From Pararhodobacter aggregans (GTDB taxonomy: Bacteria; Pseudomonadota; Alphaproteobacteria; Rhodobacterales; Rhodobacteraceae), in assembly GCF_003075525.1 (NCBI RefSeq), contig NZ_QDDR01000012.1, positions 1 to 64,000 of the forward strand: 64,000 nucleotides of DNA, written 5' to 3'. Within the stretch, counting starts at the first letter, position 1; every line of letters begins with the position of its first letter. A program made the position numbers and the translations under genes. Below the pieces are notes generated by a model that had not been told where the DNA came from, ran no database searches, and saw only the letters and a list, made by a program, of their open reading frames with translations. This document shows positions 29,619-60,769 of the stretch, one piece after another.

Positions 29619-29625
29619 CCTGTCG

Positions 29626-41862: not shown

Positions 41863-41994
41863 GATCGCGTGTCTCCGATGTCCGGTCTGGAGGATGGCTG
41901 CGGCCTTCTGGCCGTCTTCTGCGCGCACGCTTGGCTGTCCCTGAGAGGCATACGAATGGGCGACGCGGATTTTCACCCGCCGGGCGATCTTTTT

Positions 41995-44129: not shown

Positions 44130-45089
44130 CTAGATGGCCGGGTCGAAACGGAACCGGCCGCCGCGTCGAGACAGGTATCCGACCCCGGGAAACGGCAAAT
44201 GCATCCCGGCCACGAGGATCATGTCGGTGGCGGTTTCGTCGAAGATCCGCCGGCGCGAGGCGATGGACGATGCGGCGTCGGCGTCAAAGGTGCTGGCCCA
44301 TTCGGGATGGTCGAACTGCACCTGCGGAGAAACCACGCAATCGCCCCAGATGACCATCTGATCGCTCCCCGCAGAGAGGCGATACCCGGTATGCCCGATC
44401 GAATGGCCGGGCAACGAGATCGGCGACAATCCGGGCAGAACCTCGTCCCTTGCGCCGAACACCCGTACCTTCCCGGCATAGGCGGCCGCAGCCGCGCGGG
44501 CACCGGTGAAAGAGAACCTGAACCCGTCGGAGGCGTTGGCGTAGATCGCCTCGTTCGTCCAGAAATCCCATTCGGCGGCGGGCACGATCAATTCGGCATT
44601 GGTGAAGACGGCCGAACCTGTCGCGCTGGTCAGGCCGCCGGTGTGGTCGTTGTGCATATGGGTGAGCACGACCTTGTCGATGTGGTCGGCCGAGACGCCG
44701 ATTGCCGCCAGCTGGTCGGGCAGCCTGCCCAGTGTCGGACCGTAAAGATCCCGGGTGCCGGTGTCGATCAGCAGCTTTTGCGTGCCGATTTCAAGCAGAT
44801 AGGCATTGACGTCAAGGTTGATCTTGCCTTGGGGCTGATGGGTCTGCTCCATCAGCATGGCGAACGCCTCGGGCTCTGCCGTGTCAAAGATCGCGGCATC
44901 GACCTGGACAATGCCGTCAAACAGCGCCGTGCACCGGATGTCACCGATCATCCAGGTCTTGCTGTCGTTCATGACCATTGTCCGGCCCGGGGATTGGGCA
45001 AACCCCATGCTCGGGACGCCGCTGGCCAGCGCCGTGCCGGACAGGGCGGCACCCGATCCCTGAAGAAAGGCGCGTCGATTGAAGGTCAT
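44130..45089 (-). CDS. Exported metallo-beta-lactamase-fold hydrolase (Tat signal)
   Basis: A 319-residue MBL-fold enzyme with a twin-arginine signal (FNRRAFLQGSGAALSGTALA) and metal site H144-x-H146-x-D148-H149 (LTHMHNDHTGG), followed by LPGHSIGHTGYRL and IWGDCV. Being exported, it may hydrolyse a lactone or ester in the periplasm before uptake. The ATG at 45089 is chosen to start the Tat signal. A LysR gene is divergent upstream. It resembles the cytoplasmic proteins at 30925 and 55050. Confidence 0.9.
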   Translation of the reverse strand: MTFNRRAFLQGSGAALSGTALASGVPSMGFAQSPGRTMVMNDSKTWMIGDIRCTALFDGIVQVDAAIFDTAEPEAFAMLMEQTHQPQGKINLDVNAYLLEIGTQKLLIDTGTRDLYGPTLGRLPDQLAAIGVSADHIDKVVLTHMHNDHTGGLTSATGSAVFTNAELIVPAAEWDFWTNEAIYANASDGFRFSFTGARAAAAAYAGKVRVFGARDEVLPGLSPISLPGHSIGHTGYRLSAGSDQMVIWGDCVVSPQVQFDHPEWASTFDADAASSIASRRRIFDETATDMILVAGMHLPFPGVGYLSRRGGRFRFDPAI

Positions 45090-45172
45090 CGAGAAAATCT
45101 CCCCTATCGTGAGTTCGTTTCCCGTATGCGCCACTCAGAACCTGCAATAAAGTTTGTAAATATCGGATTTAA

Positions 45173-45188
45173 GCTGCATAATTGCAGC
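45173..45188. promoter_or_regulatory. Palindrome abutting the LysR start codon
   Basis: GCTGCA-TAAT-TGCAGC, a 6-bp inverted repeat with 4-bp centre ending one base before the ATG at 45189, in the divergent region between the MBL gene and the LysR gene. A related CTGCAATAA lies about 30 bp upstream. Probable LysR binding site, inferred from position. Confidence 0.45.
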
Positions 45189-46055
45189 ATGGAAGACTGG
45201 GATGACTATCGGTATTTTCTGGCCGTCGTGCGCGAAGGCAGCATTGCCGCCGCCGCTCAGCTGCTGCGCGTGAATGACACGACGGTATCGCGCCGCATCT
45301 CGGCGCTCGAAGCTGCGCTGGATACGAGGCTTTTCGACCGGCGCCGGACGGGTTTCGTCCCGACCGCCGAGGCGGCCTCGCTGATTCCGGCTGCCGAAGA
45401 GGTAGAAGCCGGTGCCAAGCGGATCGCGCGGTTGACCCTGGCGCAGGACCGGCGTCTGGAGGGTCCGCTGCGCGTCACCGCCCCGTTGGTCCTGCTGCGC
45501 TACGTCCTGATGCCCATCGCGGCGCAGGTCGCCGCGCGCTATCCCGGGATCACGTTGCACCTCCAGGGTGCCGACGAAATCGCCAACCTCATCAACCGCG
45601 AGGCCGATGTCGCCATCAGGGTGACGGCTGCGCCGATGGACACCCTGCACGGCTACAGGATCTGCGATGCGGTATCCGGGCTCTACGCCGCGCCCGCGCT
45701 GCTGGAGCGTCGCGGGCTTGATGCCGCCAGCGCCCTAGAGGCGCAGGATCTGGAATGGATCGCGCAGGAAGACGACGTGGCGCGCGCAACCTGGCAGGGT
45801 CGGTTCTTTCCGGCCGGAAGACAGGTTTGTCATTGCGACAACAAGGTCACCGCGATCGGGGCCGCGCTGCAGGGCATGGGCGTGGTGGAACTGCCCGTGC
45901 TCATCGGCGATGCCGAACCGGGGCTAGAGCGGCTCGCGGGTTTCACGGCGACGTCGGACAAGGGCATCTGGGTGCTCTACCACCGCGATCTGCGCAACAC
46001 CGCCCGCGTCCGCGCCTTCGTGGACATGGTGCGAGCCGCCCCGACCCTGGGGTGA
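45189..46055 (+). CDS. LysR-family transcriptional regulator
   Basis: A 288-residue LysR protein. It begins WDDYRYFLAVVREGSIAAAA, has the helix-turn-helix LLRVNDTTVSRRISALEAAL, and an effector domain after residue 90. The pattern matches the CrgA/AaeR-like subgroup. Divergent from the exported MBL hydrolase, it may also control cluster B, whose aldehyde dehydrogenase gene converges on it 10 bp away. The effector is unknown. Confidence 0.9.
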   Translation: MEDWDDYRYFLAVVREGSIAAAAQLLRVNDTTVSRRISALEAALDTRLFDRRRTGFVPTAEAASLIPAAEEVEAGAKRIARLTLAQDRRLEGPLRVTAPLVLLRYVLMPIAAQVAARYPGITLHLQGADEIANLINREADVAIRVTAAPMDTLHGYRICDAVSGLYAAPALLERRGLDAASALEAQDLEWIAQEDDVARATWQGRFFPAGRQVCHCDNKVTAIGAALQGMGVVELPVLIGDAEPGLERLAGFTATSDKGIWVLYHRDLRNTARVRAFVDMVRAAPTLG

Positions 46056-46065: not shown

Positions 46066-47496
46066 CTAGGCCACGAATTGTGACACGTATTTGGTGGTCA
46101 GGTAGCCTGCGACACCCTCGCTTCCGCCTTCCGAGCCATTGCCGCTTTGCCCGACGCCGCCGAAGGGCGTTTCGGGCAAGGAAATCTGCGGCGTGTTGAT
46201 GCCGATCATGCCCGCCCGCAGACCGTTGGCGACGCGATGCTGGGTGCGGATCGACCGGGTATAGCAATAGGCGGCAAGCCCGTAGGGCAGGGCGTTGGCC
46301 CGGGCGATCGCCGTGTCCAGATCGTCGAAGCGGATCAGGGCGGCAATCGGCCCGAAGGGTTCGTCGTTCAGGATTGCGGCATCCGCAGGCAATTGGTCAA
46401 CCACGGTCGGCGCAAAGAAATTCCCGGGACCCTTCCGGGCCACACCGCCGGTCAGCACGCGTCCCCCCCGGGCGCGTGCATCCTCGCTCATCGCCTCGAT
46501 GCGCCGCAGCTGGCGGGCCGAGGCCAGGGGGCCCATCTGGGTCCCGGCCGCCAATCCGTGACCGAGCCGCAGGGCGGCGGCCCGCTGGCTGAAGGCCGAA
46601 GCGAAGCGGTCGTAGATATCGGCATGCACGAAAATGCGGGTCGGCGAATTGCAGACCTGACCGCAATTGCGGAACTTGCTGGCTGTAAGCGTGGCTGCGG
46701 TGGCCTCGATATCGACATCGCGGTCGATGATCGTCGGGGCGTGCCCGCCAAGCTCCAAGGTTGCCTTTACCACCTTGTCCGCGGCGATCCGGGACAAGTG
46801 TCTGCCCACATCGGTGCTGCCGGTGAACGACAGCTTGGCGATGCGCCCGGACTCCAGAAAAGCGGTGCTGAGCAGGGCATTCGAGCCGAACACCAGGTTG
46901 GCCACTCCCGGCGGCAAACCGGCTTCGGCCAAGGCCGTGATCACCGCCGTCGCGGCCGAAGGAACCTGCTTGCTGCCGATCAGCACCGCCGAGCAGCCCG
47001 CTGCGAGGGCCTCGCTGAATTTGCGGGCGACGAACATCAGCGGCACGTTCCAGGACGGGATCAGCAGGCAGATTCCGACCGGCTCGCGCTGCACATACTG
47101 GTGAAACCTCGGATCGCGCGGCGGGATCAGCCGCCCGTATTGCCGTTGCCCCTCGGCGGCGGACCATTCCATCATCTCGGCCGAGACCGACACCTCCAGG
47201 CGGGCCTCGGCCAGCGGCTTGCCCTGCTCGCAGACGATGGCGCGGGCATGGGCTTCGGCATCGCGCCGCAAGATCGCAGCGGCGCGGCGCAGGATCTCGC
47301 CACGCTCGGCAGGCGAGACATGCCGCCAATGGGCGAAACCCCTTTCGGCGCAATCTAGGATACCGGCAACGGCTTCCGGCGGGGTGAGGGCGATCGAGCC
47401 GAGCTCTTCGCCGCTGGCCGGATCGACAGAAGCCACCCATTCCGCAAGACCGCCCTGCCATTCCCCGTTCACGAATCCGACATGACGGTTCACCAT
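46066..47496 (-). CDS. Aldehyde dehydrogenase (succinate-semialdehyde/benzaldehyde-type)
   Basis: A 476-residue aldehyde dehydrogenase with catalytic C282 in RNCGQVCNSPTR, general base E248 in LELGGHAPTI and N150 in IPSWNVPL. The sequence class differs from the tandem pair at 24042. It would oxidise the aldehyde released by the retro-aldol step proposed for cluster B. The ATG at 47496 gives VNRHVGFVNGEW, a normal N-terminus. It is the last gene of the cluster B minus-strand operon, 16 bp after the lactonase gene. Confidence 0.92.
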   Translation of the reverse strand: MVNRHVGFVNGEWQGGLAEWVASVDPASGEELGSIALTPPEAVAGILDCAERGFAHWRHVSPAERGEILRRAAAILRRDAEAHARAIVCEQGKPLAEARLEVSVSAEMMEWSAAEGQRQYGRLIPPRDPRFHQYVQREPVGICLLIPSWNVPLMFVARKFSEALAAGCSAVLIGSKQVPSAATAVITALAEAGLPPGVANLVFGSNALLSTAFLESGRIAKLSFTGSTDVGRHLSRIAADKVVKATLELGGHAPTIIDRDVDIEATAATLTASKFRNCGQVCNSPTRIFVHADIYDRFASAFSQRAAALRLGHGLAAGTQMGPLASARQLRRIEAMSEDARARGGRVLTGGVARKGPGNFFAPTVVDQLPADAAILNDEPFGPIAALIRFDDLDTAIARANALPYGLAAYCYTRSIRTQHRVANGLRAGMIGINTPQISLPETPFGGVGQSGNGSEGGSEGVAGYLTTKYVSQFVA

Positions 47497-47512
47497 GGTT
47501 CCGAACCCTTGC

Positions 47513-48385
47513 TCATTGCCAATGGGCGGGTGGCAGGCCCGCGACGGGCGCCTGAAAAGTCGCCAGCCGGGTCTGACCCAGTCCGCCGACATGAACGGTC
47601 CGCAGATCGGGCCCGCAGAACGTCAGGCTCGAGGGATGGTCGAGAATGGCGCCGTCCGGGTCTTCGAACACCAGATGGGCGGTTCCGTCCGGGGCGATCG
47701 CATAGAGACGATTGCGCGTGATCTCGGTCACCCAGAGGTTTCCGGCGGCATCGAAGCGGATCCCGTCGATCAGGGCACCGTCGAAGATCGGGTCCGGCCC
47801 GAAGACCTCGCGCGGGCCCAGACTGCCATCGGGGCGCAGCCGCGCGCGCGACACCCTGCCGCCCCGGGTTTCCGCGATGTAGAGCCAGTCCATCGCGGCA
47901 TCCAGACGCACCTCGTTGGTGAAGAGCAGCCCGTCCGTGACGATCCGTGGCCCCTTGTGATCCATCACGATGACATAGCCGTCGGGGACGTCGCTCTCCA
48001 ACGCCAGAAGATGATTGGAGAGCCTCGACGAGACCGAAAGCCAGAGCCGCCCCGTCGGATCCCGCTCGACGAAATTGGCCGCACCCACGGGAGCGCCCTC
48101 CACCCTGTCGAGGAAAACCTGTTCCGAGCCGTCCCGACCGACCTTGTAGAAGCGGCGCAGCGCGATATTCGCCATGAGGAAGCTGCCATCCTCGGACATG
48201 GTCATGCCGTTGGGTTTGCCACCCATCCGTCCGATCAGCCGCTGCCGGCCATCCGCGGCGATGGAGGTGATGGCGCCCCGGTTGTCCGACACCCAGAGCG
48301 CGCCGTCCCGTTCGGCGACGATGCATTCGGGGCGGCTCAACCCGTTGCCGGTAAAGGTGAAATCCGACGCGCTCAGTTCGAACAT
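47513..48385 (-). CDS. SMP-30/gluconolactonase-family protein
   Basis: A 290-residue six-bladed beta-propeller of the SMP-30/gluconolaconase/LRE family. Signatures include GLSRPECIVAERDGALWVSD, RMGGKPNGMTMSEDGSFLMAN, and the metal-site segments FVERDPTGRLWLSVS and TNEVRLDAAMDWLYIAE with GIRFDAAGNLWVTE. It should hydrolyse a lactone using calcium or a similar metal. It lies 15 bp downstream of the SDR gene in the same operon. Confidence 0.88.
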   Translation of the reverse strand: MFELSASDFTFTGNGLSRPECIVAERDGALWVSDNRGAITSIAADGRQRLIGRMGGKPNGMTMSEDGSFLMANIALRRFYKVGRDGSEQVFLDRVEGAPVGAANFVERDPTGRLWLSVSSRLSNHLLALESDVPDGYVIVMDHKGPRIVTDGLLFTNEVRLDAAMDWLYIAETRGGRVSRARLRPDGSLGPREVFGPDPIFDGALIDGIRFDAAGNLWVTEITRNRLYAIAPDGTAHLVFEDPDGAILDHPSSLTFCGPDLRTVHVGGLGQTRLATFQAPVAGLPPAHWQ

Positions 48386-48400
48386 GACAGCTGCTTTCCC

Positions 48401-49183
48401 TCACAGGCCCTTGGTCATGCCGCCGTCGATATCGATCGCGGCACCATGGATGAAGCTGCCCGCCTCGGAGAGCAGAAAGGCGATCAGGCCGGCGACATCG
48501 CCGGGCTGGCCAAAGCGGGTGATCTTCAGATCGGCGATCATCTCGCGTCCCGCTCGGTCCAGGTCACCGTGGCCGGCGTCGCGGGCCCGCTGTTGCAGCA
48601 GGCTGTCCAGACGTCCGGTGTCGATCCAGCCCGGGTTGATCGCGTTGACCCGCACCCCGTCGCGGCGGCCTGTCTCGGCCAGCGCCTTGTTGAAATTCAG
48701 CAGCGCGGCGCAGATCGTCCCGCCGATCAGCGAGCTTTCCGAAGGGGAATGCGCCAGCGCGCCGGCAATGGTGATCGCCGATCCTTTCGCTTCCGCGAGG
48801 TGAGGCCAGGCGGCGCGGGTCAGGGCGACCGTGCCGAAGAACTTGACGGCAAAGCCGTGCTGCCAGTCGGCATCGCCCAAGTCCAGCAGGGTGCCGCGGC
48901 GGGTCGCCCCGGCGCAGTTTATCAGCGCATCGAGGCGCCCGAACCGCGCCACGACCTGCCCGACCAGGTCGGGTGCGGCAGCGGCATCGGCCAGATCGGC
49001 AGGAATCGCCAGCACATCGGTCAGCGTCGCCAGCTCGGCCACGGCGTCGGACAGATGCGGCGTATCCAGCGCGGCCACGGCCAGGGCATAGCCGCGGGCG
49101 GCCAGGGTTCTGGCGGTCTCGCGTCCGATCCCCTGGCTGCCGCCCGTAATCATCGCGACGGGCTTTTGCGACAGGTTGGTCAT
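48401..49183 (-). CDS. Short-chain dehydrogenase/reductase
   Basis: A 260-residue classical SDR with cofactor motif TGGSQGIG at about 14-21, and NCAG in LINCAGAT. The catalytic tyrosine is not in a standard YxxSK context: the expected region reads SPSESSLIGGTICAALLNFNKAL, where the YxxxK pair is missing or moved, so activity may differ from the family norm. The C-terminal IDGGMTKGL is typical. The start overlaps the BKACE stop (ATGA). Confidence 0.8.
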   Translation of the reverse strand: MTNLSQKPVAMITGGSQGIGRETARTLAARGYALAVAALDTPHLSDAVAELATLTDVLAIPADLADAAAAPDLVGQVVARFGRLDALINCAGATRRGTLLDLGDADWQHGFAVKFFGTVALTRAAWPHLAEAKGSAITIAGALAHSPSESSLIGGTICAALLNFNKALAETGRRDGVRVNAINPGWIDTGRLDSLLQQRARDAGHGDLDRAGREMIADLKITRFGQPGDVAGLIAFLLSEAGSFIHGAAIDIDGGMTKGL

Positions 49184-50133
49184 GCCATCCTCCTCGTGGC
49201 TGAAAAGCGGGTGTTCTCGCGGCCCTTGAGCCCGAGGATCTCGCGCGTCTCGTCGGGCGTGGCGACGGACAGACCCATCCCTTCGACCAGGGCGCGCGCC
49301 GTTTCGACCTGCTCCCGGTTCGAGACCGAGAGGCGCCCCTTTCCTGCCCAGAGATTGTCTTCAAGCCCGACGCGGATGTTTCCGCCCAGGGACAGGCCCG
49401 TTGCAGCCACGCGCATCTGGTGTCGGCCCGCGCCCAGGACGGACCAGCGGTAATCCGCGCCGAACAGGCGGTCGGCGGTCCGGCGCATATGGGCGATGTC
49501 TTCCGGATGATTGCCGATGCCCCCCAGCAGGCCGAAGACGCTTTGCACGAAGAACGGCGGCGTCACGAGGCCGCGACCGACGAAATGGGCCAAGGTGTAG
49601 AGATGGCCGATGTCATAGCATTCGAACTCGAACCGGGTTCCCCCCGCGCCGCAAGCGGCCATCGCCTGTTCGATATCGGCCAGGGAATTGCGGAAGATGT
49701 TCGCACGACTTCCCTCGAGATAGTCGCGTTCCCAGTCGTGCCGGAACTCGGAATAGCGGTCGAGCATCGGGTAAAGCCCGAAATTCATGCTGCCCATGTT
49801 CATCGAGGCCAGCTCCGGCTCGAACATGATCACCGGCTTGATCCTCTCGGCCACGCTCATCGTCGGCGCGCCGCCGGTCGTCAGGTTCAGCACGGCATCG
49901 GTTCGCTGCGACAAGGCCGCAAGGATCGGGGCGAAGGCCTCGGCGCTCTGATCGGGGCGGCCTGTCTGCGGATCGCGCGCATGCAGGTGCAGCACCGACG
50001 CTCCCGCCTCGGCGGCGCCGAGGGCCGAGGCGACGATTTCCTCGGGCGTGACAGGAAGATGGGGCGACATGGACGGCGTGTGAATCGAGCCCGTTATCGC
50101 ACAGGTGATGATGATCTTGTCGCTGGTGCTCAT
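49180..50133 (-). CDS. BKACE-family (3-keto-5-aminohexanoate cleavage enzyme-like, DUF849) protein
   Basis: A 317-residue TIM barrel of the beta-keto acid cleavage enzyme family, which converts a beta-keto acid plus acetyl-CoA to acetoacetate plus a new acyl-CoA. The zinc ligands are visible as H49 and H51 in LHLHARDP and E258 in VGLEDNLW. Family members differ in the side chain they accept, so the substrate cannot be named. It is coupled to both neighbours by four-base overlaps (DUF35 gene upstream, SDR downstream), so it belongs to the CoA-linked route of cluster B. Confidence 0.93.
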   Translation of the reverse strand: MSTSDKIIITCAITGSIHTPSMSPHLPVTPEEIVASALGAAEAGASVLHLHARDPQTGRPDQSAEAFAPILAALSQRTDAVLNLTTGGAPTMSVAERIKPVIMFEPELASMNMGSMNFGLYPMLDRYSEFRHDWERDYLEGSRANIFRNSLADIEQAMAACGAGGTRFEFECYDIGHLYTLAHFVGRGLVTPPFFVQSVFGLLGGIGNHPEDIAHMRRTADRLFGADYRWSVLGAGRHQMRVAATGLSLGGNIRVGLEDNLWAGKGRLSVSNREQVETARALVEGMGLSVATPDETREILGLKGRENTRFSATRRMA

Positions 50134-50555
50134 TCGGGGGCCCTCAGGAAAGCCGGGATCGCCACACCCTGTTCATGGCGGATCGCCAGCCTCAGCGGCT
50201 GGTCGAGGTGCAATTGCGCACAGATCTCCTGCTCGGGATCGAGTCCCACCACGTTCGAGATCAGCCGCGGCCCCTCGTCCAGCTCGACCACGGCAACGTT
50301 GTAGGGCACCCGGTCCTCGAAAGCCGGGTTGAAGGCGCGGTGATAGACCACCCAGCTGATCAGCTTGGCGCCCCCTGAGGCCGGAACCCAGCCGATATCG
50401 GGGCCGAGGCAGCCGGGGCATTGGCTGCGGGCCGGCAGCCAGGCCGTGCCGCAGGACAAGCAGCGCTGATAGAGCAGATGGCCCTTGCCGAGCGCCTCCC
50501 AATAGGGTGCGCTCAGATCATCGATGTCGGGGCGGGGAAACGCGGCCGGGCTCAT
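50130..50555 (-). CDS. DUF35 OB-fold protein with zinc ribbon, partner of thiolase-like protein
   Basis: A 141-residue protein with a rubredoxin-like zinc ribbon (C32, C35, C46, C49) followed by an OB fold (WVVYHRAFNPAFEDRVPYNVAVVELDEG is the typical core). DUF35 proteins bind acyl-CoA and form complexes with thiolase-like proteins. The steroid-degrading ChsH2/Ltp2 aldolase is the best-known case. It lies 13 bp downstream of such a thiolase-like gene here. Confidence 0.92.
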   Translation of the reverse strand: MSPAAFPRPDIDDLSAPYWEALGKGHLLYQRCLSCGTAWLPARSQCPGCLGPDIGWVPASGGAKLISWVVYHRAFNPAFEDRVPYNVAVVELDEGPRLISNVVGLDPEQEICAQLHLDQPLRLAIRHEQGVAIPAFLRAPE

Positions 50556-50568
50556 CCTGCAGGCTCCT

Positions 50569-51693
50569 TCATTGTCCGAGGATCAGGGTCGAATGGGTAT
50601 GCATCACCCCGCCCTGGTTCGAGATGGCGCAGGTCCGCGCGCCTGAGATCTGGTTGGCGGCCGTCCCGCGCATCTGGCGCACCCCTTCGAGGATCAGTTG
50701 CAGCCCCGGCATCCCCGTCTCGGACAAGAGCCCGCCTGCGGTGTTGATCGGCAGATCGCCGTCCAGCGCGATCGCGCCGGAGGCACAGAAGGCACCCCCC
50801 TGTCCGCGCGGGCAGAAGCCATAATCCTCCAGCGACATCAGCGCCGTGATCGTGAAGCAATCATAGATCTGGGCCACGTCGATCTCGCGCGGGGTCAGGC
50901 CAGCCATGGCAAAGGCCGTCTGCGCCGAGGCCTTCGCCGCCGTGGTGGTCAGATCGGGGCGCAGCGCGACTTCCCACGATGTCTGTCCCTGGCCGAACCC
51001 GAGAATGGGGACGGGCGCCGAAATCCCCTCGCGCCGGGCGAAGCCGGCGCTGGTCAGCACCACCGCCGCACCGCCGTCCGAGACCAGGCAGCAATCGTCG
51101 CGGCGCAGGGGCTCAACCACCATCGGACTGTCCATATAGGCGTCCAAAGTCAGCGGCTTGCGCAGCTGCGCGCGCGGATTGGTGGCGCCATTCGCCCGGC
51201 AGACGACCGAGATCGCCCCCAATTGTTCCGGGGTCGTTCCAAACTGGCCCATGTGACGCTGTGCGATCATCGCATAACCGGCGGGGATGCCGAACCAGCC
51301 GAAGATCTCGTCATTGCCCCAGGCCTTGTCATAGGCCTGCCGCGTTCCCGATTTCGGATTGTCGGCAAAGGTCACCACCGCGACCTCGCATTGTCCGGCG
51401 GCAATCGCCATCGCCGCGTAGCCGACCAGCGAGGCGTTGGCGGCCCCTCCCTGATCCCAGACCCCCCCGATCCGCGGCACGATTCCCAGATGCTCGGCCA
51501 GTTTCTGGCCGTACATGAATTCGAACCGCGAGGTCGGGAACTTGACGAACAAGCCGTCAACCCGGTCTTTGGCGATGCCCGCATCGGCCAGCGCATGGCG
51601 CACCGCCTCGGCGTTCAGCGAATAGGTCGAGCGACCCGGCAACTTGCCGAAGGCGGTCTGTCCGATCCCCGCGATGACGACCTCGCCGCGCAT
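50569..51693 (-). CDS. Thiolase-like protein (SCP-x/Ltp2 type), probable retro-aldolase lacking the thiolase cysteine
   Basis: A 374-residue thiolase fold. At the place where thiolases carry the nucleophilic cysteine (about residues 78-86) it reads VWDQGGAANA, so it cannot act as a normal thiolase. It keeps QIYDCFTIT around Y277 and NQGGVMHTHS near the end, as in the SCP-x/Ltp2 group. Ltp2-type proteins with a DUF35 partner cleave beta-hydroxyacyl-CoA by a retro-aldol reaction to a carbonyl compound and a shortened acyl-CoA. The ATG at 51693 overlaps the CoA-transferase stop (TGATG). Confidence 0.88.
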   Translation of the reverse strand: MRGEVVIAGIGQTAFGKLPGRSTYSLNAEAVRHALADAGIAKDRVDGLFVKFPTSRFEFMYGQKLAEHLGIVPRIGGVWDQGGAANASLVGYAAMAIAAGQCEVAVVTFADNPKSGTRQAYDKAWGNDEIFGWFGIPAGYAMIAQRHMGQFGTTPEQLGAISVVCRANGATNPRAQLRKPLTLDAYMDSPMVVEPLRRDDCCLVSDGGAAVVLTSAGFARREGISAPVPILGFGQGQTSWEVALRPDLTTTAAKASAQTAFAMAGLTPREIDVAQIYDCFTITALMSLEDYGFCPRGQGGAFCASGAIALDGDLPINTAGGLLSETGMPGLQLILEGVRQMRGTAANQISGARTCAISNQGGVMHTHSTLILGQ

Positions 51694-52886
51694 CAGATCA
51701 CGCCTTCGTCGCGCATCCGGGCATAGGCCTCGGGCGAGAGGCCCAGCCACTCCTGGAACACCGCCGCGTTGTCGCGGCCCAATTCCCCGGACGGGCGCAG
51801 GTCCACAGTGTCCTGCCCGTGAAACCGAAGGGCGGATCGGGGCAGGGCGACGCGGCCATACATCGGGTGGTCGATCCACTCCAGGGCGCCGCGCGCGTGC
51901 AGATGATCGTCGTTGATGACTTCGTCCAGCGTCCGGACCGGCGCGCAGGGGACCCGGTGCTCGGACAGGAGGTCGAAGAGCGGCTGCTTGGCATGTTGGC
52001 GGGTGAAGTCCGCGACCAGCGCATCGACGTCATCCATGCGCTCCACCCGCTGCTTCAGGGTCGCCAGCGCCGGATCCTCGGCCAGGTCCGGTCTCTGCAT
52101 CGCCTCGGTCAGCTGGATCCAGTGCTGGTCGGAAACGCAGATGATCGCGATATGGCCGTCGCTGGTCGGATAGACGTTGTAGGGAGCTTCGGCGAGGCCG
52201 GCATGGCGGTTGCCGGTCCGGGGCGGAATGTCGCCATGGCTGCCGTAATAGAGCCCCAGGGACGAGCTGAGCGAGGGATAGAGCGCCTCCATCATCGCCA
52301 CCTCGACCAGACGACCGCGGCCTGTCACCGCCCGGTCGTAGAGCGCGGTCACGAGACCGGCGTAGAGGTGGACGCCGCCGAAGAAATCGGCAATGGCGGG
52401 TCCGGCCTTGACCGGTGGCCGGTCGGGGAATCCCGTCGTGCTCATCACCCCCGTCATGGCCTGCACCGTCAGGTCCATCGCGGGGTATTTCGCCTTGGGG
52501 CCGGAACGGCCATAGCCCGACCCGGCGGCATAGACGATGTCGGGCTTGATCGCCTTCAGATCCTCATAGCCCACGCCAAGCTTGTCCATCGTGCCGGGCG
52601 CGTAGTTTTCGACCACCGCATCGGCGCGCTTCACCATCGCGCGGAAAAGATCCCGGCCCTGTTCGGTCTTCAGGTTCAGCGAGACCATGTCCTTGTTCGA
52701 ATTGAGCATCGCGAAGGGCAGGGCGGCGCCGCCGACCACGGTACGCCGCCGCAGCGGATCGCCGCGCGGGGGTTCGATCTTGATTACCCGCGCCCCCGCC
52801 ATCGCCAGCAGGAAGGTGCAATAGGGTCCGTTATAGATCTGGCCGACATCGATGATCGTCACGCCATACAAGGGTCCGGTGTTCAT
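51693..52886 (-). CDS. CaiB/BaiF-type (class III) CoA-transferase
   Basis: A 397-residue class III CoA-transferase. VTIIDVGQIYNGPYCTFLLA is near the N-terminus, the likely catalytic aspartate is in GPAIADFFGG, and GRSGPKAKYPAMDLTVQAMTG is conserved. It would activate the acid entering the cluster B route. It starts 2 bp after the hydratase stop, and is translationally linked to the thiolase-like gene. It is a counterpart of the enzyme at 20386 but not a close copy. Confidence 0.92.
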   Translation of the reverse strand: MNTGPLYGVTIIDVGQIYNGPYCTFLLAMAGARVIKIEPPRGDPLRRRTVVGGAALPFAMLNSNKDMVSLNLKTEQGRDLFRAMVKRADAVVENYAPGTMDKLGVGYEDLKAIKPDIVYAAGSGYGRSGPKAKYPAMDLTVQAMTGVMSTTGFPDRPPVKAGPAIADFFGGVHLYAGLVTALYDRAVTGRGRLVEVAMMEALYPSLSSSLGLYYGSHGDIPPRTGNRHAGLAEAPYNVYPTSDGHIAIICVSDQHWIQLTEAMQRPDLAEDPALATLKQRVERMDDVDALVADFTRQHAKQPLFDLLSEHRVPCAPVRTLDEVINDDHLHARGALEWIDHPMYGRVALPRSALRFHGQDTVDLRPSGELGRDNAAVFQEWLGLSPEAYARMRDEGVI

Positions 52887-52888
52887 CC

Positions 52889-53662
52889 CTATCTTCCTTC
52901 AAATCTGGGGGCGCGCTTCTGGGCGAAGGCGCGGGCGCCCTCCTCGACGTCGCCGGTCGTCTGCAAGAGCCTGTTTGCCATCTGCTCGGCGCGCAGGCCG
53001 CTTTGAAGATCCATGTCGTGGCTGCGCAAGGCCAGCTCCTTCGAGGCGCGGACAGCCAACGGTGCGTTGTCTGCAAGTTCCTGGGCCAGGGCGAGCGCGG
53101 CGGCTTCCAGCCGATCGCGGGGCACGATCCGATTGATCAACCCCCAGCGCAAAGCCTCCTCGGCCTCCATGCGGCGCCCGGTGAGCAGCAGCTCCATGCC
53201 GATGGCATGGGGCAATTGCTTGAGGATCCGCTGGGTTCCGCCGTTGGCCGCGATCACGCCCCGCCGGACCTCGGTCACTGCAAAGCTTGCCTCGGTCGAG
53301 GCCAGCCGGATGTCCGTCGCCATCATCAGGGTCATGCCCCCACCCAGGCAATAGCCGTTGATCGCCGCCACGACCGGCTTGTAAAGCTCGATCCCGCGGT
53401 TCAGCAGCATGCCGTTCTGCGGGTTCCAGAGGTCGGACAAGGGCGGGCCGGCGGCGACGAAATCCCTCAGGTCCGCGCCTGCGCAGAAGGCCCGGTCCCC
53501 GGCGCCGGAGATCACCACGGCCCGGACCGCATCGTCATCGCGAACGGCTATCCAGGCCTCGGTCAGCGCCGCGTAATGCGCCGCATCGAGCGCGTTCATT
53601 TTCTCGGGGCGGTTGATGGTGATCCGGGCCACCGGGCCATCGCGGACGAGGTCGATCGACAT
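52889..53662 (-). CDS. Enoyl-CoA hydratase (crotonase family)
   Basis: A 257-residue crotonase with both catalytic glutamates in place (FAVTEVRRG and AIGMELLLTG), and oxyanion segments CAGADLRDF and INGYCLGGG. It should hydrate a 2-enoyl-CoA, giving the beta-hydroxyacyl-CoA needed by the retro-aldolase. The ATG at 53662 overlaps the acyl-CoA dehydrogenase stop (TGATG). A TTG one codon upstream is less likely. Compare the crotonase at 18125, which lacks the second glutamate. Confidence 0.93.
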   Translation of the reverse strand: MSIDLVRDGPVARITINRPEKMNALDAAHYAALTEAWIAVRDDDAVRAVVISGAGDRAFCAGADLRDFVAAGPPLSDLWNPQNGMLLNRGIELYKPVVAAINGYCLGGGMTLMMATDIRLASTEASFAVTEVRRGVIAANGGTQRILKQLPHAIGMELLLTGRRMEAEEALRWGLINRIVPRDRLEAAALALAQELADNAPLAVRASKELALRSHDMDLQSGLRAEQMANRLLQTTGDVEEGARAFAQKRAPRFEGR

Positions 53663-54861
53663 CAATCGACCTCGCGGCTGCCGTTGCGGATCAGGTCGCG
53701 GGCGATCACCATGCGGTGCACCTCGGAGGGGCCCTCGCCGATCCGCTTGATCCGCGTCTCGCGGAACCAGCGTTCCAGCGGGAGTTCCTTGGCCACGCCC
53801 ATCCCGCCCAGGATCTGCACGCAGCGATCCACGACCCGGTTCGCCGCCTCGCTGGCGAAGAGCTTGGCGACCGATGCCTCCAGCTTGATGTTCGCGCCCC
53901 GCTCAGCGCGCCAGGCAGCCTGGTAGACCAGCAGCCGCGCCGCCCTGAGATCGACCTCGCTGTCGGCCAGCATCCATTGGATCGCCTGATGCTCGGCCAG
54001 CTTCTTGCCGAAGGTCTCGCGATCACGCGCCCAGTCGAGCGCGATGTCCAGCGCCGCCTGCGCGGTTCCGATGCAGGTTGCGGCATAGGGCACGCGCTGG
54101 TGGACCAGCCAATCCTCGGCCAGCGCGAAACCCTGGCCTTCCTCGCCCAGCCGGTTCGCCACCGGAATGCGGCAGTCTTCGAAGGTCAGCTGGTAGGGGG
54201 AATAGGAACGGATCACATCGATGGGTTCCAGCGTCAGGCCCGGCGTGCCGATGTCGACGATGAAGCTCGTGATCCCGCCGCGCGCCTGCGGATCGCCCGT
54301 TCGGGCGAACACGACGCCCCATGTCGCCTGGCCCGCACCGGTGATCCAGACCTTGGTGCCGTTGAGCACGTAATGGTCGCCATCGCGGACCGCGCGCGTG
54401 CGGATCGCCCGGGCCGGATCCGACCCGCCGCTGGGTTCCGAGATCGCCACGAAGGTCTTGTCGCCCCTAGCGATGCAGGGGACCGCATAGCGCGCGATCT
54501 GGTCCGCGCTCCCCTTGAAGATCACGTTCGGCGGATCGAAGCCGAAGGCGCCGCCAGCCGGAACATAGGCGCCCATGCGGCATTTCGCGGCCTCTTCGGC
54601 GACCACGACCTGACCCAGCAGGCCGAGCCCCGCGCCGCCGTGTTCGACGGGCGATTGCACGCACCAGATCCCCAGCTCCCGCGCCTGCCTGCGCAGCCCT
54701 TCGAGGACATCCTTCGGGAACTCGTAGGAATCGCTGGGCAGCGCCTCTTCAGCCGGGCGCACCTGGCCGGTCATGAACTTGCGCAGCATGTCGCGCATCG
54801 CGCGCAGCTCTTCGGGCATCTGCCAACCCAGCAGCCCGATTTCCTCGCCATCGTAGGACAC
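53662..54861 (-). CDS. Acyl-CoA dehydrogenase
   Basis: A 399-residue FAD-dependent acyl-CoA dehydrogenase. It has FVAISEPSGGSDPARAI and WITGAGQATWG flavin/substrate segments, the conserved RDRETFGKKLAEHQAIQW helix, and the C-terminal RIGEGPSEVHRM segment. It would introduce the double bond at the start of the cluster B cycle. The start is GTG (54859-54861) after GGGAGGGAAA, better than an upstream frame that runs into the operator at 54938. It is the first gene of the minus-strand operon. Confidence 0.92.
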   Translation of the reverse strand: MSYDGEEIGLLGWQMPEELRAMRDMLRKFMTGQVRPAEEALPSDSYEFPKDVLEGLRRQARELGIWCVQSPVEHGGAGLGLLGQVVVAEEAAKCRMGAYVPAGGAFGFDPPNVIFKGSADQIARYAVPCIARGDKTFVAISEPSGGSDPARAIRTRAVRDGDHYVLNGTKVWITGAGQATWGVVFARTGDPQARGGITSFIVDIGTPGLTLEPIDVIRSYSPYQLTFEDCRIPVANRLGEEGQGFALAEDWLVHQRVPYAATCIGTAQAALDIALDWARDRETFGKKLAEHQAIQWMLADSEVDLRAARLLVYQAAWRAERGANIKLEASVAKLFASEAANRVVDRCVQILGGMGVAKELPLERWFRETRIKRIGEGPSEVHRMVIARDLIRNGSREVD

Positions 54862-55049: not shown

Positions 55050-55931
55050 ATGGTCGATCATTTACTGACGCTGCGACAGACGCCCGCGATCTATCGCCGA
55101 CGCATCGGCGGTTTCATGGTGACGATCCTCTCGGACGGTCATCTCGAAGCCGATCCGGCGTTCTTTTCCGGCGGGGCGGCGCTGTTGGGTGAACTGACCG
55201 ACGCAGCCTTCCTGCCCCGGGGGCCCTTCCGCATGGGGACGGTGGTCTATGTCGTCGATGACGGGAAACGCCGGGTGATGGTCGATGCCGGCTGCGGACC
55301 GCTCTTCGGGCCGACCTCGGGCTACTTGCTGTTCAACCTGAAGCAGGCGGGGATCGAGCCCGAGACGATCGACGCGATCCTCATCACCCACATGCATGCC
55401 GACCACATCGGCGGTCTGCTCGACGAGGGCGGAGCGGTGTTTCCGAACGCCGAGATCGTGCTGCATCAGGCCGAGTTCGACTATTTCATGGGCGATCTGG
55501 CGATGCAGCGCAGCACCGACCGCAACCGCCCCTGGCTGCTGCGCGCGCGCACCGTGCCTCAGCATTACCCCCGGCTGCGGTGCTTCGACCGCGAAGGCCC
55601 GGTGCTGCCCGGCATCACTGCCGTCCCGCTGGCCGGACACACGCCGGGCCATTCGGGATTCATGATCGAATCCGGCAACGAGCAGCTCTTTCTGGCTGCG
55701 GATCTGGTCTATTCGCCGGTCTACAGCTTTCACCTGCTGGATCAGAACTTCGCCTTCGATGTCGACCCCGAGGGCGCGATTGCCTCCCGCAAGCGGGGTC
55801 TCGACATGATCGCCACAGAGAAATGGCTCATGTCGGCCACGCATCTGCCGTTTCCCACCCTGGGCCATGTCGGTCGCCGCGCGGGCGGGGGCTTCGACTA
55901 TGTGCCGGAAGACTGGCGGTTCGATCCCTGA
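55050..55931 (+). CDS. Metallo-beta-lactamase-fold hydrolase
   Basis: A 293-residue MBL-fold protein with metal site H114-x-H116-x-D118-H119 (ITHMHADHIGG), LAGHTPGHSGFMI and FLAADLVYSP, and a C-terminal TLGHVGRR segment. It has no signal peptide. A GGGAGGG ribosome site precedes the ATG. It is divergent from the acyl-CoA dehydrogenase operon and convergent with the GMC gene. Likely a lactonase or thioesterase for a cluster B intermediate. Confidence 0.9.
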   Translation: MVDHLLTLRQTPAIYRRRIGGFMVTILSDGHLEADPAFFSGGAALLGELTDAAFLPRGPFRMGTVVYVVDDGKRRVMVDAGCGPLFGPTSGYLLFNLKQAGIEPETIDAILITHMHADHIGGLLDEGGAVFPNAEIVLHQAEFDYFMGDLAMQRSTDRNRPWLLRARTVPQHYPRLRCFDREGPVLPGITAVPLAGHTPGHSGFMIESGNEQLFLAADLVYSPVYSFHLLDQNFAFDVDPEGAIASRKRGLDMIATEKWLMSATHLPFPTLGHVGRRAGGGFDYVPEDWRFDP

Positions 55932-55968: not shown

Positions 55969-57552
55969 TTAACCGGCCGCTGCCCGGATCAGGGCCGACC
56001 CTCTCTCGGCGACGGCCAGCACGGCGGCGTGAATGTTCCCCGAAACCGGCAGGGGCATGACCGAGGCATCGACAACGCGCAAGCCCCGCACGCCATGCAC
56101 CGACAGGTCCTGATCCACGACGGCACCCATGGCGCAGGTGCCGCCGGGATGAAAGATCGTATCGCCCGATGCGCGCACGAACTGCTCCCATTGCTCGGGC
56201 GTCTGGACACCGGGGCCGGGCGTCAGCTCGTCCTTGGTCCAGCCGGCCAGCCCCGGGCCACGCATGGCGCGCCGCAATCCCTGGCAGGCAGCGACCATCC
56301 GGGCCATGTCCGAGCCCTGACTCAGGACGCCGGTCAGGATTTCGGGCGCTCGGCGGATGTCGGGCGAGAGGGCGCGCACATGCCCCCGGCTTTCGGGCTG
56401 GACGAGGCAAACGACCATACCCCAGCGATCCTCTGCCGGCGCGTGCATCAGCCAGGGTTGCAAACTCGGATCGAAGAGCCGCAACAGCACCTGGAAATCC
56501 GGGGCGCGGCGGTCGGGTGCTGAGCGCAGGAACAGATGCGCGGCGGCCAGGGGCCAGGTCGCGGGACCAGAGCGCAGCAACAGCGCCTGAGCGAAACGCA
56601 GCGCCAGCCGGTCCCAGCGCAGCAACCGGTGCATGTAGGAAGCGGGGCGGCGGTAGTCGAGGGCGACCCGGGGATGTTCCCACAGGTTCCGGCCCACTGC
56701 CTCCATCGGGACGATGGGCGGGATCCCGGCGGCCTGAAGAACCGCGCCGGGACCGATGCCCGAGACCTGAAGCAGATGCGGCGAGCCGAAGGCGCCAGCG
56801 GCCAGAATGACCTCGCACCGCGCCGTGATGCGACGCACCCCGCCCTTGTGGCGCGCGACGACATGGCGGGCCCGGCCCTCGCTGATCGAGAGGGAGTCGA
56901 CCAGATGGTCGCTCAGCACGGTCAGGTTGCGCCGATCCAGGACCGGGTCCAGATAGGCGGCGCGCGGATCGCTCCGGCGCCCGCGCGCGATGTTGAACTG
57001 GGCACGCCCCACCCCCGGCCCGAGCGCGGCATTGTAGTCGCAAAGGCGGGGATGCCCCTGCGCTTCGAGCGCGGCGATCCAGTCGTCGATCAGGGCGTCC
57101 TGAACCGGTGTCTCGGTCACACCCATCGGGCCCGCGCTTCCCCGCGCCTCGTCGGCCAGGGCCGGCTCGACCCGTTCAACGGCCCGAAAGGCTTCGGCCA
57201 TGTCCTGCGCGGACCAGCCTTGCAGCCCCAGGGCGTGCCAGGCGTCGAAATCGGCCGCGGCGCCCCGCACGAAATTCATGGCGTTGACCGCGCCGCTGCC
57301 CCCCAGCAAACGGCCCCGAGGCAAGGTCAGCCGCCGTCCGTCAAGCCCGGGCTCGGGGGCCGAGCGGAAATCCCAGCCATAGCGCGGATCGTTCCACAAT
57401 CGCCCGACCCCCAGCGGGACACGGGCCATCAGGGGGCGGCGTCCGGGTCCGGCCTCGATGAGGACCACGGAATACCGCCCGCCCTCGGACAATCGGTTCG
57501 CCAGAACGCACCCCGCACTGCCGCCGCCCACGATCACGAAGTCAGCCTGCAT
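55969..57552 (-). CDS. GMC-family FAD-dependent oxidoreductase (choline dehydrogenase-like)
   Basis: A 527-residue flavoprotein alcohol oxidoreductase. It has the FAD motif VIVGGGSAGCVLANRLSEGG at about 6-25, GGSGAVNAMNFVRG, the active-site histidine in HPGGTCAMG, and the C-terminal VDASVMPLPVSGNIHAA. It oxidises a primary alcohol to an aldehyde; acceptor and substrate are unknown. The ATG at 57552 is preferred over 57576, which would overlap the flavin reductase gene. Confidence 0.92.
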   Translation of the reverse strand: MQADFVIVGGGSAGCVLANRLSEGGRYSVVLIEAGPGRRPLMARVPLGVGRLWNDPRYGWDFRSAPEPGLDGRRLTLPRGRLLGGSGAVNAMNFVRGAAADFDAWHALGLQGWSAQDMAEAFRAVERVEPALADEARGSAGPMGVTETPVQDALIDDWIAALEAQGHPRLCDYNAALGPGVGRAQFNIARGRRSDPRAAYLDPVLDRRNLTVLSDHLVDSLSISEGRARHVVARHKGGVRRITARCEVILAAGAFGSPHLLQVSGIGPGAVLQAAGIPPIVPMEAVGRNLWEHPRVALDYRRPASYMHRLLRWDRLALRFAQALLLRSGPATWPLAAAHLFLRSAPDRRAPDFQVLLRLFDPSLQPWLMHAPAEDRWGMVVCLVQPESRGHVRALSPDIRRAPEILTGVLSQGSDMARMVAACQGLRRAMRGPGLAGWTKDELTPGPGVQTPEQWEQFVRASGDTIFHPGGTCAMGAVVDQDLSVHGVRGLRVVDASVMPLPVSGNIHAAVLAVAERGSALIRAAAG

Positions 57553-57559
57553 GGCCGGA

Positions 57560-58177
57560 TCAGAGCCCGCTGGCATCCAACGCTGCCTGAGGCATGCGGA
57601 CCACCGGACCCAGCCCGGCGTAATTCGGCCCGCCCAGCCGGGCGACCGGATCGAGTGCGACGGTTTCGATCTTGCCGTTGTTGACCAGATCGTCGCGCAC
57701 GTGGAAGCGCAGGACCTCGCCGATAATCAGCATGTTGCGCTCTTCACCCAGCGGGATTGCCAGATGAAGCCGGCATTCCAGGCTTGCCGGCGCCACGGCG
57801 ATGCGCGGCGGCGCGATGGTGACGCTGGGCAATTGCTGCAGGTTCAGCGCCTCGGCCTCGCTGACATCCGGGGGCACGACCGCAGAGCTGTGATGCATCA
57901 CCGCCAGCGCCGCGCTGTTGACGATGTTCACCACAAACTCGCCGGTGCGCAGGATGTTGTTCCCGCTGTCCTTCAGCACCGATCCGGCCTTGCGGCCGAT
58001 CGACACCGCCACCATCGGCGGCTTGTGCGAGCAGAAGGTGAAGGCAGAAAACGGCGACAGATTGGTCGATCCGGCTTCGTTCAGCGTGCTGATCCAGGCG
58101 ATCGGGCGCGGAACGACCAGGCCGGTCATGATCTTGTAGTTTTCCGCCATCGTTTTGGTGCTGGGATCGATCTCCAT
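57560..58177 (-). CDS. Flavin reductase-like (FMN-binding split-barrel) protein
   Basis: A 205-residue split-barrel flavoprotein. Family segments are VPRPIAWISTLNEAG, NLSPFSAFTFCSHKPP, and TGEFVVNIVN. Such proteins bind FMN and either supply reduced flavin to an oxygenase or reduce a substrate directly. No partner oxygenase is adjacent. The ATG at 58177 overlaps the stop of the serine hydrolase (TGATG), and the GMC gene follows after 7 bp. Confidence 0.88.
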   Translation of the reverse strand: MEIDPSTKTMAENYKIMTGLVVPRPIAWISTLNEAGSTNLSPFSAFTFCSHKPPMVAVSIGRKAGSVLKDSGNNILRTGEFVVNIVNSAALAVMHHSSAVVPPDVSEAEALNLQQLPSVTIAPPRIAVAPASLECRLHLAIPLGEERNMLIIGEVLRFHVRDDLVNNGKIETVALDPVARLGGPNYAGLGPVVRMPQAALDASGL

Positions 58178-59346
58178 CACCGGGCCTCCCCGACCGTGCC
58201 GCTTGGCGAGAGCGCCGCGTGCACCATGTCCGAAAGCCGCTGAAAGCGCAGGTGGCTGTCCACCTGATCCATCAGCCCGGACGACAGAAAGACCGCCGAC
58301 AGCCGGCGCTCCGGGTCGCACCAGAAGACCATCGACCCGGCCCCGATGCAGCCGAAGGTGGCGGCCGAGGCGAGATGGCCGAAGGGCATCGGAAACAGCC
58401 CTTCCCCGCGCAGGAAGAAGCCTAGCCCCAGATAGGCGGGATAGGGCGCCAGACCGCGCATTTCCCGCTGCGCCGCTAAGGTATTGTTGGGCCTGAGCCC
58501 GGTGTGGTTTGTCGTCGCCAGGGCCAGCGCCGCAGGCGAGACCACAGGCGCCCCATCCAGGGTGCCGCCCGCCTCCAGCATGGCGACGAAGCGCAGCATG
58601 TCGTCGAGCGAGGCATAGCCACCGCCGCCGGGCAATTCGCTGGCCTCGGTCATGGCGGCGTCGCGGGCCATGAGCCCCAGGTTCATCGGCGTCTCGTTGC
58701 GGGCGACGATCGGCACGCGCAACGACGCAAGGACCGGCGCGGCGCCGATGGCGCTGTTGGCCATGCCGAGGGGCTGGAAAATGTCCTCGGCAATGATCTG
58801 ACGATAGGGCCGTCCCTGCGGATCAAGCACTTCGATCACCCGCCCCAGCACGTCGTAGGAGACTTGCGCGCTGTAGGAGACGACCTCGCCCGGCGGGTTG
58901 ACCGGGGCGATCTGGCAGGCCAGCTCGACGGTCGCCCGCAGGTTGCCCTGCATCTCGGCCGACAGTCCGGGCAGGGTGAAGGGCATCCCGCCGGTATGGG
59001 CCAGAAGCTGTGCAATCGTCACCTTCTGCTTCCCGTTGGCGCCGAAGCCGGGAAGGACCTCGGCGACCCGGGTGCCGAGCGAGAGGGCGCCGCGCTCGAT
59101 GGCCTGAAAAATACCGAGCGCCGTGAAGGCCTTGGTGAAGGACAGGACCGCGAACACATCCGTCGCGCCCAGCCTGCGCCCGCTGCGCCGGTCGGCAAAG
59201 CCGTAGCTGGCCTGGAAGGCCGTGCGCCCCGCCACCCGGATTCCGACCGCCATCCCGTCATAGAGCGCGTCGTCGATATCTCGGGTGATCGAAGCGCCAA
59301 GCCGCTCCAACTGCGCGGCGCGCAGGGTGGTGCCGAAACCGGTCAT
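58177..59346 (-). CDS. Serine hydrolase, class C beta-lactamase/EstB-like esterase
   Basis: A 389-residue penicillin-binding-protein-fold hydrolase with catalytic S69-x-x-K72 (SFTK) and the tyrosine motif YSA at 158-160 (VSYSAQVSYDV). No signal peptide is seen, so it is more likely a cytoplasmic esterase of the EstB type than an antibiotic-resistance enzyme. It starts the short minus-strand operon with the flavin reductase and GMC oxidoreductase. The upstream region carries a cluster B motif. Confidence 0.88.
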   Translation of the reverse strand: MTGFGTTLRAAQLERLGASITRDIDDALYDGMAVGIRVAGRTAFQASYGFADRRSGRRLGATDVFAVLSFTKAFTALGIFQAIERGALSLGTRVAEVLPGFGANGKQKVTIAQLLAHTGGMPFTLPGLSAEMQGNLRATVELACQIAPVNPPGEVVSYSAQVSYDVLGRVIEVLDPQGRPYRQIIAEDIFQPLGMANSAIGAAPVLASLRVPIVARNETPMNLGLMARDAAMTEASELPGGGGYASLDDMLRFVAMLEAGGTLDGAPVVSPAALALATTNHTGLRPNNTLAAQREMRGLAPYPAYLGLGFFLRGEGLFPMPFGHLASAATFGCIGAGSMVFWCDPERRLSAVFLSSGLMDQVDSHLRFQRLSDMVHAALSPSGTVGEAR

Positions 59347-60760: not shown

Positions 60761-60769
60761 GAGCCAGAG

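Follow-up and report, generated by a model that had tools for sequence, protein, structure and literature searches.

In a 64,000-nucleotide stretch of Pararhodobacter aggregans DNA (contig NZ_QDDR01000012.1, positions 1 to 64,000; hereafter the window), an operon of nine intact minus-strand genes occupies positions 46066-54861. Judged from its predicted proteins, this operon likely serves to degrade a carboxylic acid that, once activated with CoA, loses part of its chain by retro-aldol cleavage rather than by oxidation and thiolysis. The reaction would be carried out by a thiolase-superfamily protein (THIO, 50569..51693, with a Pfam thiolase C-domain), the probable large subunit of an acyl-CoA retro-aldolase, together with a DUF35 protein (50130..50555; a ChsH2-type zinc ribbon and OB fold, PF01796 and PF12172), its probable partner subunit. 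The retro-aldolase reading of THIO is well supported by sequence comparison, with the bile-acid side-chain aldolase Sal rather than the steroid aldolase Ltp2 as its model.

We aligned THIO with its counterparts from 80 related loci, with seven same-genome paralogues (L082-L088; the genome holds 12 matches, of which these and the window gene were aligned) and with four solved relatives: CtSal of Comamonas testosteroni (9myr), TcLtp2 (6ok1), a putative thiolase of Sphaerobacter thermophilus (4u4e) and 7yvy. The 80 loci are the best 80 of 143 relatives and were found with peptide patterns including WDQGGAAN and QIYDCFTI, so that invariance at these two motifs is partly built in by the retrieval. 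An earlier, sequence-only reading of the operon had called THIO cysteine-less on the strength of the motif VWDQGGAANA. The term is literally wrong, as THIO has eight cysteines and retains that of its YDC motif (C279), but the observation behind it holds: the motif spans residues 78-87, and G83 falls in the column of the nucleophilic cysteine of true thiolases. Residue 83 is Gly in 81/81 members (window included), in CtSal, TcLtp2 and 4u4e and in paralogues L082 and L083; L084 has a gap there, and 7yvy and paralogues L085-L088 have Cys. A conserved nucleophilic cysteine was thus sought by alignment and not found, and a hidden one in THIO is ruled out, there being no cysteine at the aligned site in any of the 81 members.

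Two further positions were compared. All 81 members have Tyr at residue 277, as do CtSal, TcLtp2, 4u4e and L082-L084, whereas the proteins with the nucleophilic Cys have His. At residue 279, Cys is found in all 81 members, in CtSal, in L083 and in L085-L088; TcLtp2 has His at this position, 4u4e, L082 and L084 have Ser, and 7yvy has Ala. The four Cys-bearing paralogues from the same genome therefore read Cys/His/Cys where THIO reads G83/Y277/C279, and THIO has neither the nucleophilic Cys nor the HDxF His by which thiolases are recognized. The same Gly, Tyr and Cys were found in 8/8 members from a pattern-free repeat in which loci were retrieved by plain similarity (L091-L098; the overlap of their genomes with those of the 80 loci was not checked). 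In CtSal, the corresponding residues Tyr302 and Cys304 make up the proven catalytic dyad: mutants of either abolish activity, and proton roles have been proposed for both from the mutants and a substrate model (PMC12329534). As judged from the alignment, THIO has lost the thiolase nucleophile and retained the Sal dyad (Y277/C279). At the column of the second catalytic Tyr of TcLtp2 (Tyr344), which borders an alignment gap, all 81 members have Gly (Gly327 in THIO), and on this ground the assignment of THIO to Ltp2 was set aside. The Ltp2/ChsH2-DUF35 precedent invoked by the sequence-only reading consequently stands in part: the DUF35 partner is present and steroid aldolases are among the closest characterised relatives, but THIO has the Tyr and Cys of CtSal as its catalytic pair in place of the two Tyr of Ltp2.

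In a phylogenetic tree, the 81 THIO members form one clade (support 1.0) separate from CtSal and TcLtp2; the tree holds four reference proteins only, among them one Sal, whose middle is missing, and one Ltp2. Fold comparison places 9myr and 6ok1 as the top two matches by VIA-align Z. Deducing function from the fold alone was set aside, since no more than 1.1 Z units separate Sal, Ltp2, TbSLP and the thiolase 6esq.

The genes around THIO were then compared across the 80 loci, using identity thresholds of 39-60% that we chose gene by gene; the neighbouring open reading frames (ORFs) were selected by a GC-frame rule that misses genes, many flanks are short, and both reach at least 8 kb in only 46/80 loci. 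A five-gene core recurs, made up of acyl-CoA dehydrogenase (ACAD), enoyl-CoA hydratase-like crotonase (ECH), class III CoA-transferase (CoAT), aldolase and DUF35. The core is complete in 44/80 loci. In the 2.5 kb upstream of the aldolase, 67/72 loci have an ECH (at least 50% identity); ACAD (at least 55% identity) is found within 4 kb in 51/69, and CoAT (at least 45% identity) anywhere in 55/80. By record title the loci are mainly from Alpha- and Betaproteobacteria, with some Actinobacteria and Eremiobacterota and one Dehalococcoidia; the whole core is present in the actinobacterial loci L012, L024 and L028.

A Pfam survey of aldolase neighbours gave a similar picture. It left out the five loci that share a larger island with the window (see below), twelve near-duplicates judged by eye and 13 loci without room, and covered 22 of the 50 remaining loci and 137 of 140 proteins, three strays from two further loci being dropped. 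Class III CoA-transferases (20), ECH (17), DUF35 (16) and ACAD (12) were the most frequent families among these 137 proteins. The SDR (short-chain dehydrogenase) and 3-hydroxyacyl-CoA dehydrogenase families have at most two members each among the same 137 proteins from 22 loci, a bound that follows from the absence of both among the 25 listed of 56 families, the last listed entries having two members. A desaturase and a hydratase without a regular 3-hydroxyacyl-CoA dehydrogenase is the pattern that retro-aldol cleavage predicts.

The accessory enzymes of the core retain their presumed catalytic residues. ACAD (53662..54861, PF00441/PF02770/PF02771; start GTG 54861 or ATG 54927) has E376, in the motif IGEGPSE, in 57/57 orthologues (window included); by analogy with medium-chain acyl-CoA dehydrogenase it would be the catalytic base. 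CoAT (51693..52886, PF02515), whose closest solved relative is YfdE, has D167 in 56/56, presumably the catalytic residue, as in formyl-CoA transferase. ECH (52889..53662, PF00378) has E131 in 75/75, which we assume to be catalytic, and T111, also in 75/75, at a position where both aligned solved relatives have Glu; hydroxycinnamoyl-CoA hydratase-lyase likewise lacks that crotonase Glu. The best curated model for ECH is EchA19, at 249.9 bits under its cut-off of 400.

As for the DUF35 protein, its best solved matches are the aldolase partners 6ok1_B and 9myr_B. C32, C46 and C49 are found in 80/80 counterparts and C35 in 72/80, the other eight being gapped, and the gene directly follows THIO in 77/79 loci with room. 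The host genome has five DUF35 genes: that of the window, three beside L082, L083 and L084, and one beside the Cys-bearing L086. The first three of these paralogues are thus further thiolase-like proteins without a nucleophilic Cys and adjacent to DUF35, and L083 has the YDCY motif of CtSal.

Two observations weigh against the aldolase reading and slightly lower our confidence in it for the core. The DUF35 gene beside L086 belongs to a Cys-bearing thiolase of the same genome; DUF35 therefore pairs with both kinds of thiolase, and its adjacency is no proof of an aldolase. In addition, Foldseek ranks the solved relatives in another order than VIA-align, with 4u4e best.

The layout of the operon is as the sequence-only reading had it in gene order and in the TGATG and ATGA overlaps, both verified from ORF coordinates, and Pfam bears out all nine family names. 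ACAD and ECH overlap by 1 nt (TGATG) and ECH and CoAT are 2 nt apart; CoAT and THIO overlap by 1 nt (TGATG), the THIO start ATG 51693 lying on the CoAT stop codon; and THIO and DUF35 are separated by 13 nt. DUF35 overlaps by 4 nt (ATGA) with a gene for a beta-keto acid cleavage enzyme (BKACE, 49180..50133, PF05853), which itself overlaps by 4 nt (ATGA) with that of an SDR (48401..49183, PF13561). Gaps of 15 and 16 nt precede, respectively, an SMP-30/gluconolactonase family protein that is probably a lactonase (47513..48385, PF08450) and an aldehyde dehydrogenase (ALDH, 46066..47496, PF00171), whose best NCBIfam model, succinate-semialdehyde dehydrogenase (SSADH), scores 422 bits, under its cut-off of 646.

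The operon lies within a larger island, at about 44.1-66.1 kb of the contig, that extends beyond the window end. In 5/80 loci, the nine genes recur with a flanking set comprising a GMC oxidoreductase, a flavin reductase, beta-lactamase-family and metallo-beta-lactamase-fold (MBL) hydrolases and an ABC (ATP-binding cassette) ATPase, and this recurrence indicates that the nine-gene operon is more than a chance assembly. These island loci are L001, which is near-identical to the window locus (92-99% protein identity), and loci from Flavimaribacter (L002), Stappia (L004), Devosia (L006) and a betaproteobacterial metagenome-assembled genome (L075). All five retain the order DUF35-BKACE-SDR; in L004, L006 and L075, the ALDH and SMP-30 genes are reversed to the other strand. 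In the tree, the aldolases of the window and of these five loci share an ancestor with those of L005, L014 and L029 only (support 0.92).

The BKACE scores 506.8 bits on NCBIfam NF053538 (3,5-dioxohexanoate cleavage; cut-off 430), and its closest solved relative is BKACE15 of Paracoccus denitrificans (8rio, 464.4 bits over 310 residues). The in vitro substrates given for BKACE15 are 3-ketohexanoate, 3,5-dioxohexanoate, 5-hydroxy-3-ketohexanoate and 3-ketopentanoate, and aromatic degradation is suggested for it by gene context (PMC11961710). A phloroglucinol route was considered for its triacetate-cleaving enzyme of the same annotation (PMC10470551) and set aside, its other enzymes not having been searched for. 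In 8/80 loci, five of them the island loci, the core has a BKACE of at least 55% identity in its vicinity, and 39 of the 46 loci with at least 8 kb on both flanks show none. A firm link between BKACE and the core by co-occurrence was likewise set aside: the 75 non-island loci have three such genes, two of them in related DNA, which is not clearly above chance, about 1.8 BKACE genes of any kind being expected in their 1.29 Mb from the density in the host genome (7 per 5.08 Mb). One of the seven host-genome relatives (C26:9146-9952) has an internal TGA.

The reactions proposed for this organism are all deduced, from genes, residues, conservation and signs of mobility that are themselves observed. 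In the core, a free acid would be imported and receive CoA from the class III CoA-transferase, ACAD would desaturate the acyl-CoA, and the crotonase would hydrate the product to a 3-hydroxyacyl-CoA that the THIO/DUF35 pair would split into acetyl-CoA and an aldehyde, or into propionyl-CoA and an aldehyde if the alpha carbon is methylated. The succession of CoA activation, desaturation, hydration and retro-aldol cleavage put forward by the sequence-only reading fits the conserved core. By analogy with the proposal for Tyr302 and Cys304 of CtSal, Y277 would accept the proton of the 3-hydroxyl and C279 would protonate the acyl-CoA enolate. In the window-specific half, hydrolases may open a substrate lactone or ester, ALDH may convert the aldehyde to an acid, the SDR may convert a 3-hydroxy acid to a 3-keto acid, and the BKACE, using acetyl-CoA, may cleave the latter into an acyl-CoA and acetoacetate. 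Two orders can be envisaged, and the use of an aldolase product by the BKACE, as put forward by the sequence-only reading, belongs to one of them only. Lactone or ester opening and CoA activation could perhaps precede the core and aldehyde oxidation, with the SDR and BKACE then acting on the 3-hydroxy acid so formed; in this way, all nine enzymes would be needed one after another for a 5-hydroxy acid or its delta-lactone. The other order, which we would entertain less readily, has the SDR and BKACE act first, the acyl-CoA made by the BKACE entering the core and the aldolase returning the acetyl-CoA that the BKACE spends. The former is favoured because the core has a CoA-transferase in 55/80 loci and no BKACE of at least 55% identity in 72/80.

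The same scarcity of BKACE suits the view that the aldolase core has been joined to an unrelated pathway, one for sugar acids that resembles deoxyribonate breakdown and consists of lactonase, SDR and BKACE. This view is compatible with the aldolase reading of the core, and SDR, BKACE and lactonase alone do make up the deoxyribonate set, as shown genetically in Pseudomonas simiae, where they have adjacent locus tags as in the window half (PMC6365646). The passages concerned name no aldolase core, the word SMP-30 is absent from the paper, and the likeness is one of gene kinds, not of identities. We nevertheless find the view doubtful: the 4-nt overlaps on both sides of the BKACE gene and the order kept in all five island loci make it likely that both halves are needed together. 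An ordinary beta-oxidation operon, in which THIO would be inactive or accessory and the 3-hydroxyacyl-CoA dehydrogenase and true thiolase would be encoded elsewhere, is unlikely. The genome does hold four Cys-bearing thiolase paralogues, and the names CoAT, ACAD, ECH, thiolase, DUF35 and SDR resemble the benzylsuccinate bbs set, in which BbsAB is a thiolase. However, G83, Y277 and C279, invariant in 81/81 members, are what is expected of an enzyme and not of a relic, and the 22 loci scanned have no 3-hydroxyacyl-CoA dehydrogenase that recurs beside the aldolase.

Improbable as well, and more so, is that the THIO/DUF35 pair performs other CoA chemistry, be it a malonyl-CoA-type decarboxylation as for TbSLP or an acyl transfer as for PhlABC. 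The 3-hydroxy-3-methylglutaryl-CoA (HMG-CoA) synthase family, the second PhlABC subunit type, is found by Pfam in none of the nine operon proteins; ACAD and ECH would yield not malonyl-CoA but a 3-hydroxyacyl-CoA, on which an aldolase acts; and TbSLP has itself been proposed to be an aldolase (PMC12329534). Steroid or bile-acid side-chain degradation proper is very improbable, even though steroid aldolases are among the closest characterised relatives of THIO and EchA19 is the best, if sub-threshold, model for ECH. The THIO clade is separate from CtSal and TcLtp2, the hydratase belongs to the crotonases, a MaoC domain is absent from the DUF35 protein, and no steroid-indicating family name occurs among the 46 window proteins in Pfam, a scan that cannot exclude such genes and did not extend to the wider genome. 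The gene context leaves the choice among imported carboxylates wide, the HyuA/HyuB, TctC, Liv and AtuA neighbours described below fitting such compounds without designating a single one.

Retro-aldol cleavage by the THIO/DUF35 pair, the reading that we prefer, has clear relatives among known systems. Thiolase-like/DUF35 retro-aldolases are already known in steroid breakdown. CtSal-CtShy, a bile-acid C5 side-chain aldolase, shares the Gly, Tyr and Cys of THIO (35% identity, calculated over 328 aligned residues), but its DUF35 domain is fused to MaoC (PMC12329534, PMC11321319) whereas that of the window is free-standing, and the Sal system has a MaoC hydratase where the window has a crotonase-type ECH and no recognised steroid context. 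TcLtp2-ChsH2, a C3 side-chain steroid aldolase, likewise has Gly at the nucleophile site, the Tyr of YDxF and a DUF35 partner (39% identity over 363 residues), but differs by its His at the C279 position and its Tyr at the gap-adjacent Gly327 column. 4u4e, the best solved match by sequence and by Foldseek, has the Gly and Tyr of THIO and Ser in place of C279. The benzoylsuccinyl-CoA thiolase BbsAB (7pxp) is named a thiolase, unlike the aldolase proposed here. The bbs operon combines a thiolase and a DUF35 protein with class III CoAT, ACAD and ECH; the BbsB-type thiolase model scores 116.3 bits on THIO, below its cut-off of 750.

The sequence-only reading had found a steroid-type aldolase outside a steroid cluster unusual. 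It is not unprecedented: besides the three further thiolase-like genes of this genome that lack the nucleophilic Cys and adjoin DUF35, there is IpfDE of ibuprofen breakdown, whose IpfE is reportedly a DUF35 protein. IpfDE is a thiolase-family pair outside steroids that works after a ring dioxygenase and to which a retro-aldol cleavage step has been assigned (PMC9195938); we liken it to the window pair by description, not by sequence. Among the literature matches listed, judged by title and the start of the abstract, none shows conserved synteny with a described pathway, and no description appeared there of a gene set with a Sal-type dyad in a separate clade, where the operon is mobile, has no steroid genes that can be recognised and includes a CoA-transferase, a crotonase and, in the window, a BKACE. 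Tentatively, we regard it as quite possible that this gene set represents a mobile aldolytic form of beta-oxidation, not yet described: a five-gene module, present in Alpha- and Betaproteobacteria as well as some Actinobacteria, that would convert non-steroid acids into an aldehyde and acetyl-CoA and that in the window would be linked to a BKACE cleaving another C-C bond of the same molecule.

Several observations point to mobility. The family is patchy, being found in 2/149 sampled genomes of the family to which the host belongs (E up to 1e-100) and in 6/385 of its class (E up to 1e-90), the host's own genome counted in both. The window has genes of repABC type for RepC (10164-11273), RepB (11430-12443) and a ParA-like protein (12425-13615), which makes it probable that the 138-kb contig represents a plasmid or chromid; a resolvase gene lies nearby (14129-15013). 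The core was found on three plasmids. On the Hydrogenophaga plasmid pBPS33-1 (L096, 1-22566), it lies between two IS1071 transposase genes together with a TctC receptor gene, another thiolase/DUF35 pair and 3-oxoacid CoA-transferase genes; this plasmid is termed unclassified in its description, the main text of which mentions neither thiolase nor acyl-CoA (PMC7039861). The NT-25 plasmid has the order ACAD-ECH-CoAT-THIO-DUF35 of the window followed by TctB and TctA. The Roseomonas marmotae plasmid has ECH, CoA-transferase, THIO and an OB-fold gene, with no ACAD listed in the stretch.

Counted by linkage clusters at 40% identity with representatives named by Pfam, the genes associated with the core include TctC receptors (29/80 loci), Liv-type binding proteins (10/80) and AtuA (6/80). 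A second recurring neighbourhood places the core near HyuA in 16 and HyuB in 17 of the 80 loci (L003, L007, L009, L013, L021, L041, L052, L071, L080 and others), sometimes with AtuA, a ferredoxin-like partner and a Liv-type ABC importer.

The remaining genes of the island flank the operon on both sides. Downstream lie an MBL-fold hydrolase with a Tat-like signal recognized by eye (44130..45134, minus strand, PF00753) and a LysR regulator of uncertain start (45135..46055, plus strand, PF00126/PF03466), each in 3/80 loci. Upstream are a second MBL hydrolase (55050..55931, plus strand, PF00753), the GMC oxidoreductase (55969..57576, PF00732/PF05199), a flavin reductase-like protein (57560..58321, PF01613) and a serine beta-lactamase-family hydrolase (58177..59346, PF00144), the last three on the minus strand and all four in 5/80 loci, and then an ABC importer ATPase and fused permease (59624..62548, plus strand, PF00005/PF08402 and PF00528; ATPase in 5/80 and permease in 3/80 loci). 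Beyond the window follow a GntR/FCD regulator and a protein that, by eye, is probably a periplasmic binding protein (no Pfam match at 1e-5). Beside the island, at 39418-43436, are genes for a TonB-dependent receptor and FecR and, by eye, a sigma-factor-like ORF. Further away, a second catabolic cluster (15527-31740, mostly plus strand) encodes alcohol dehydrogenase, glutathione S-transferases, ECH, alpha/beta hydrolase, class III CoA-transferase, GntR, ALDH, SDR, a TRAP transporter and an MBL hydrolase, and a Fic-domain protein with DUF4172 is encoded at 8720-9859.

Proteins of the THIO family are publicly annotated as acetyl-CoA acetyltransferase or thiolase family protein, names that may conceal an aldolase branch of acid breakdown. 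The invariant Gly/Tyr/Cys signature provides a simple test and could re-label the whole family. The question of whether TbSLP and other thiolase-like proteins with YDC act as aldolases has been raised (PMC12329534), and the Gly/Tyr/Cys family makes it testable in a non-steroid bacterial system. Sal-type aldolases are also of interest as biocatalysts for steroid pharmaceuticals (PMC12329534), and a non-steroid aldolase branch, if true, would widen the choice of such biocatalysts.

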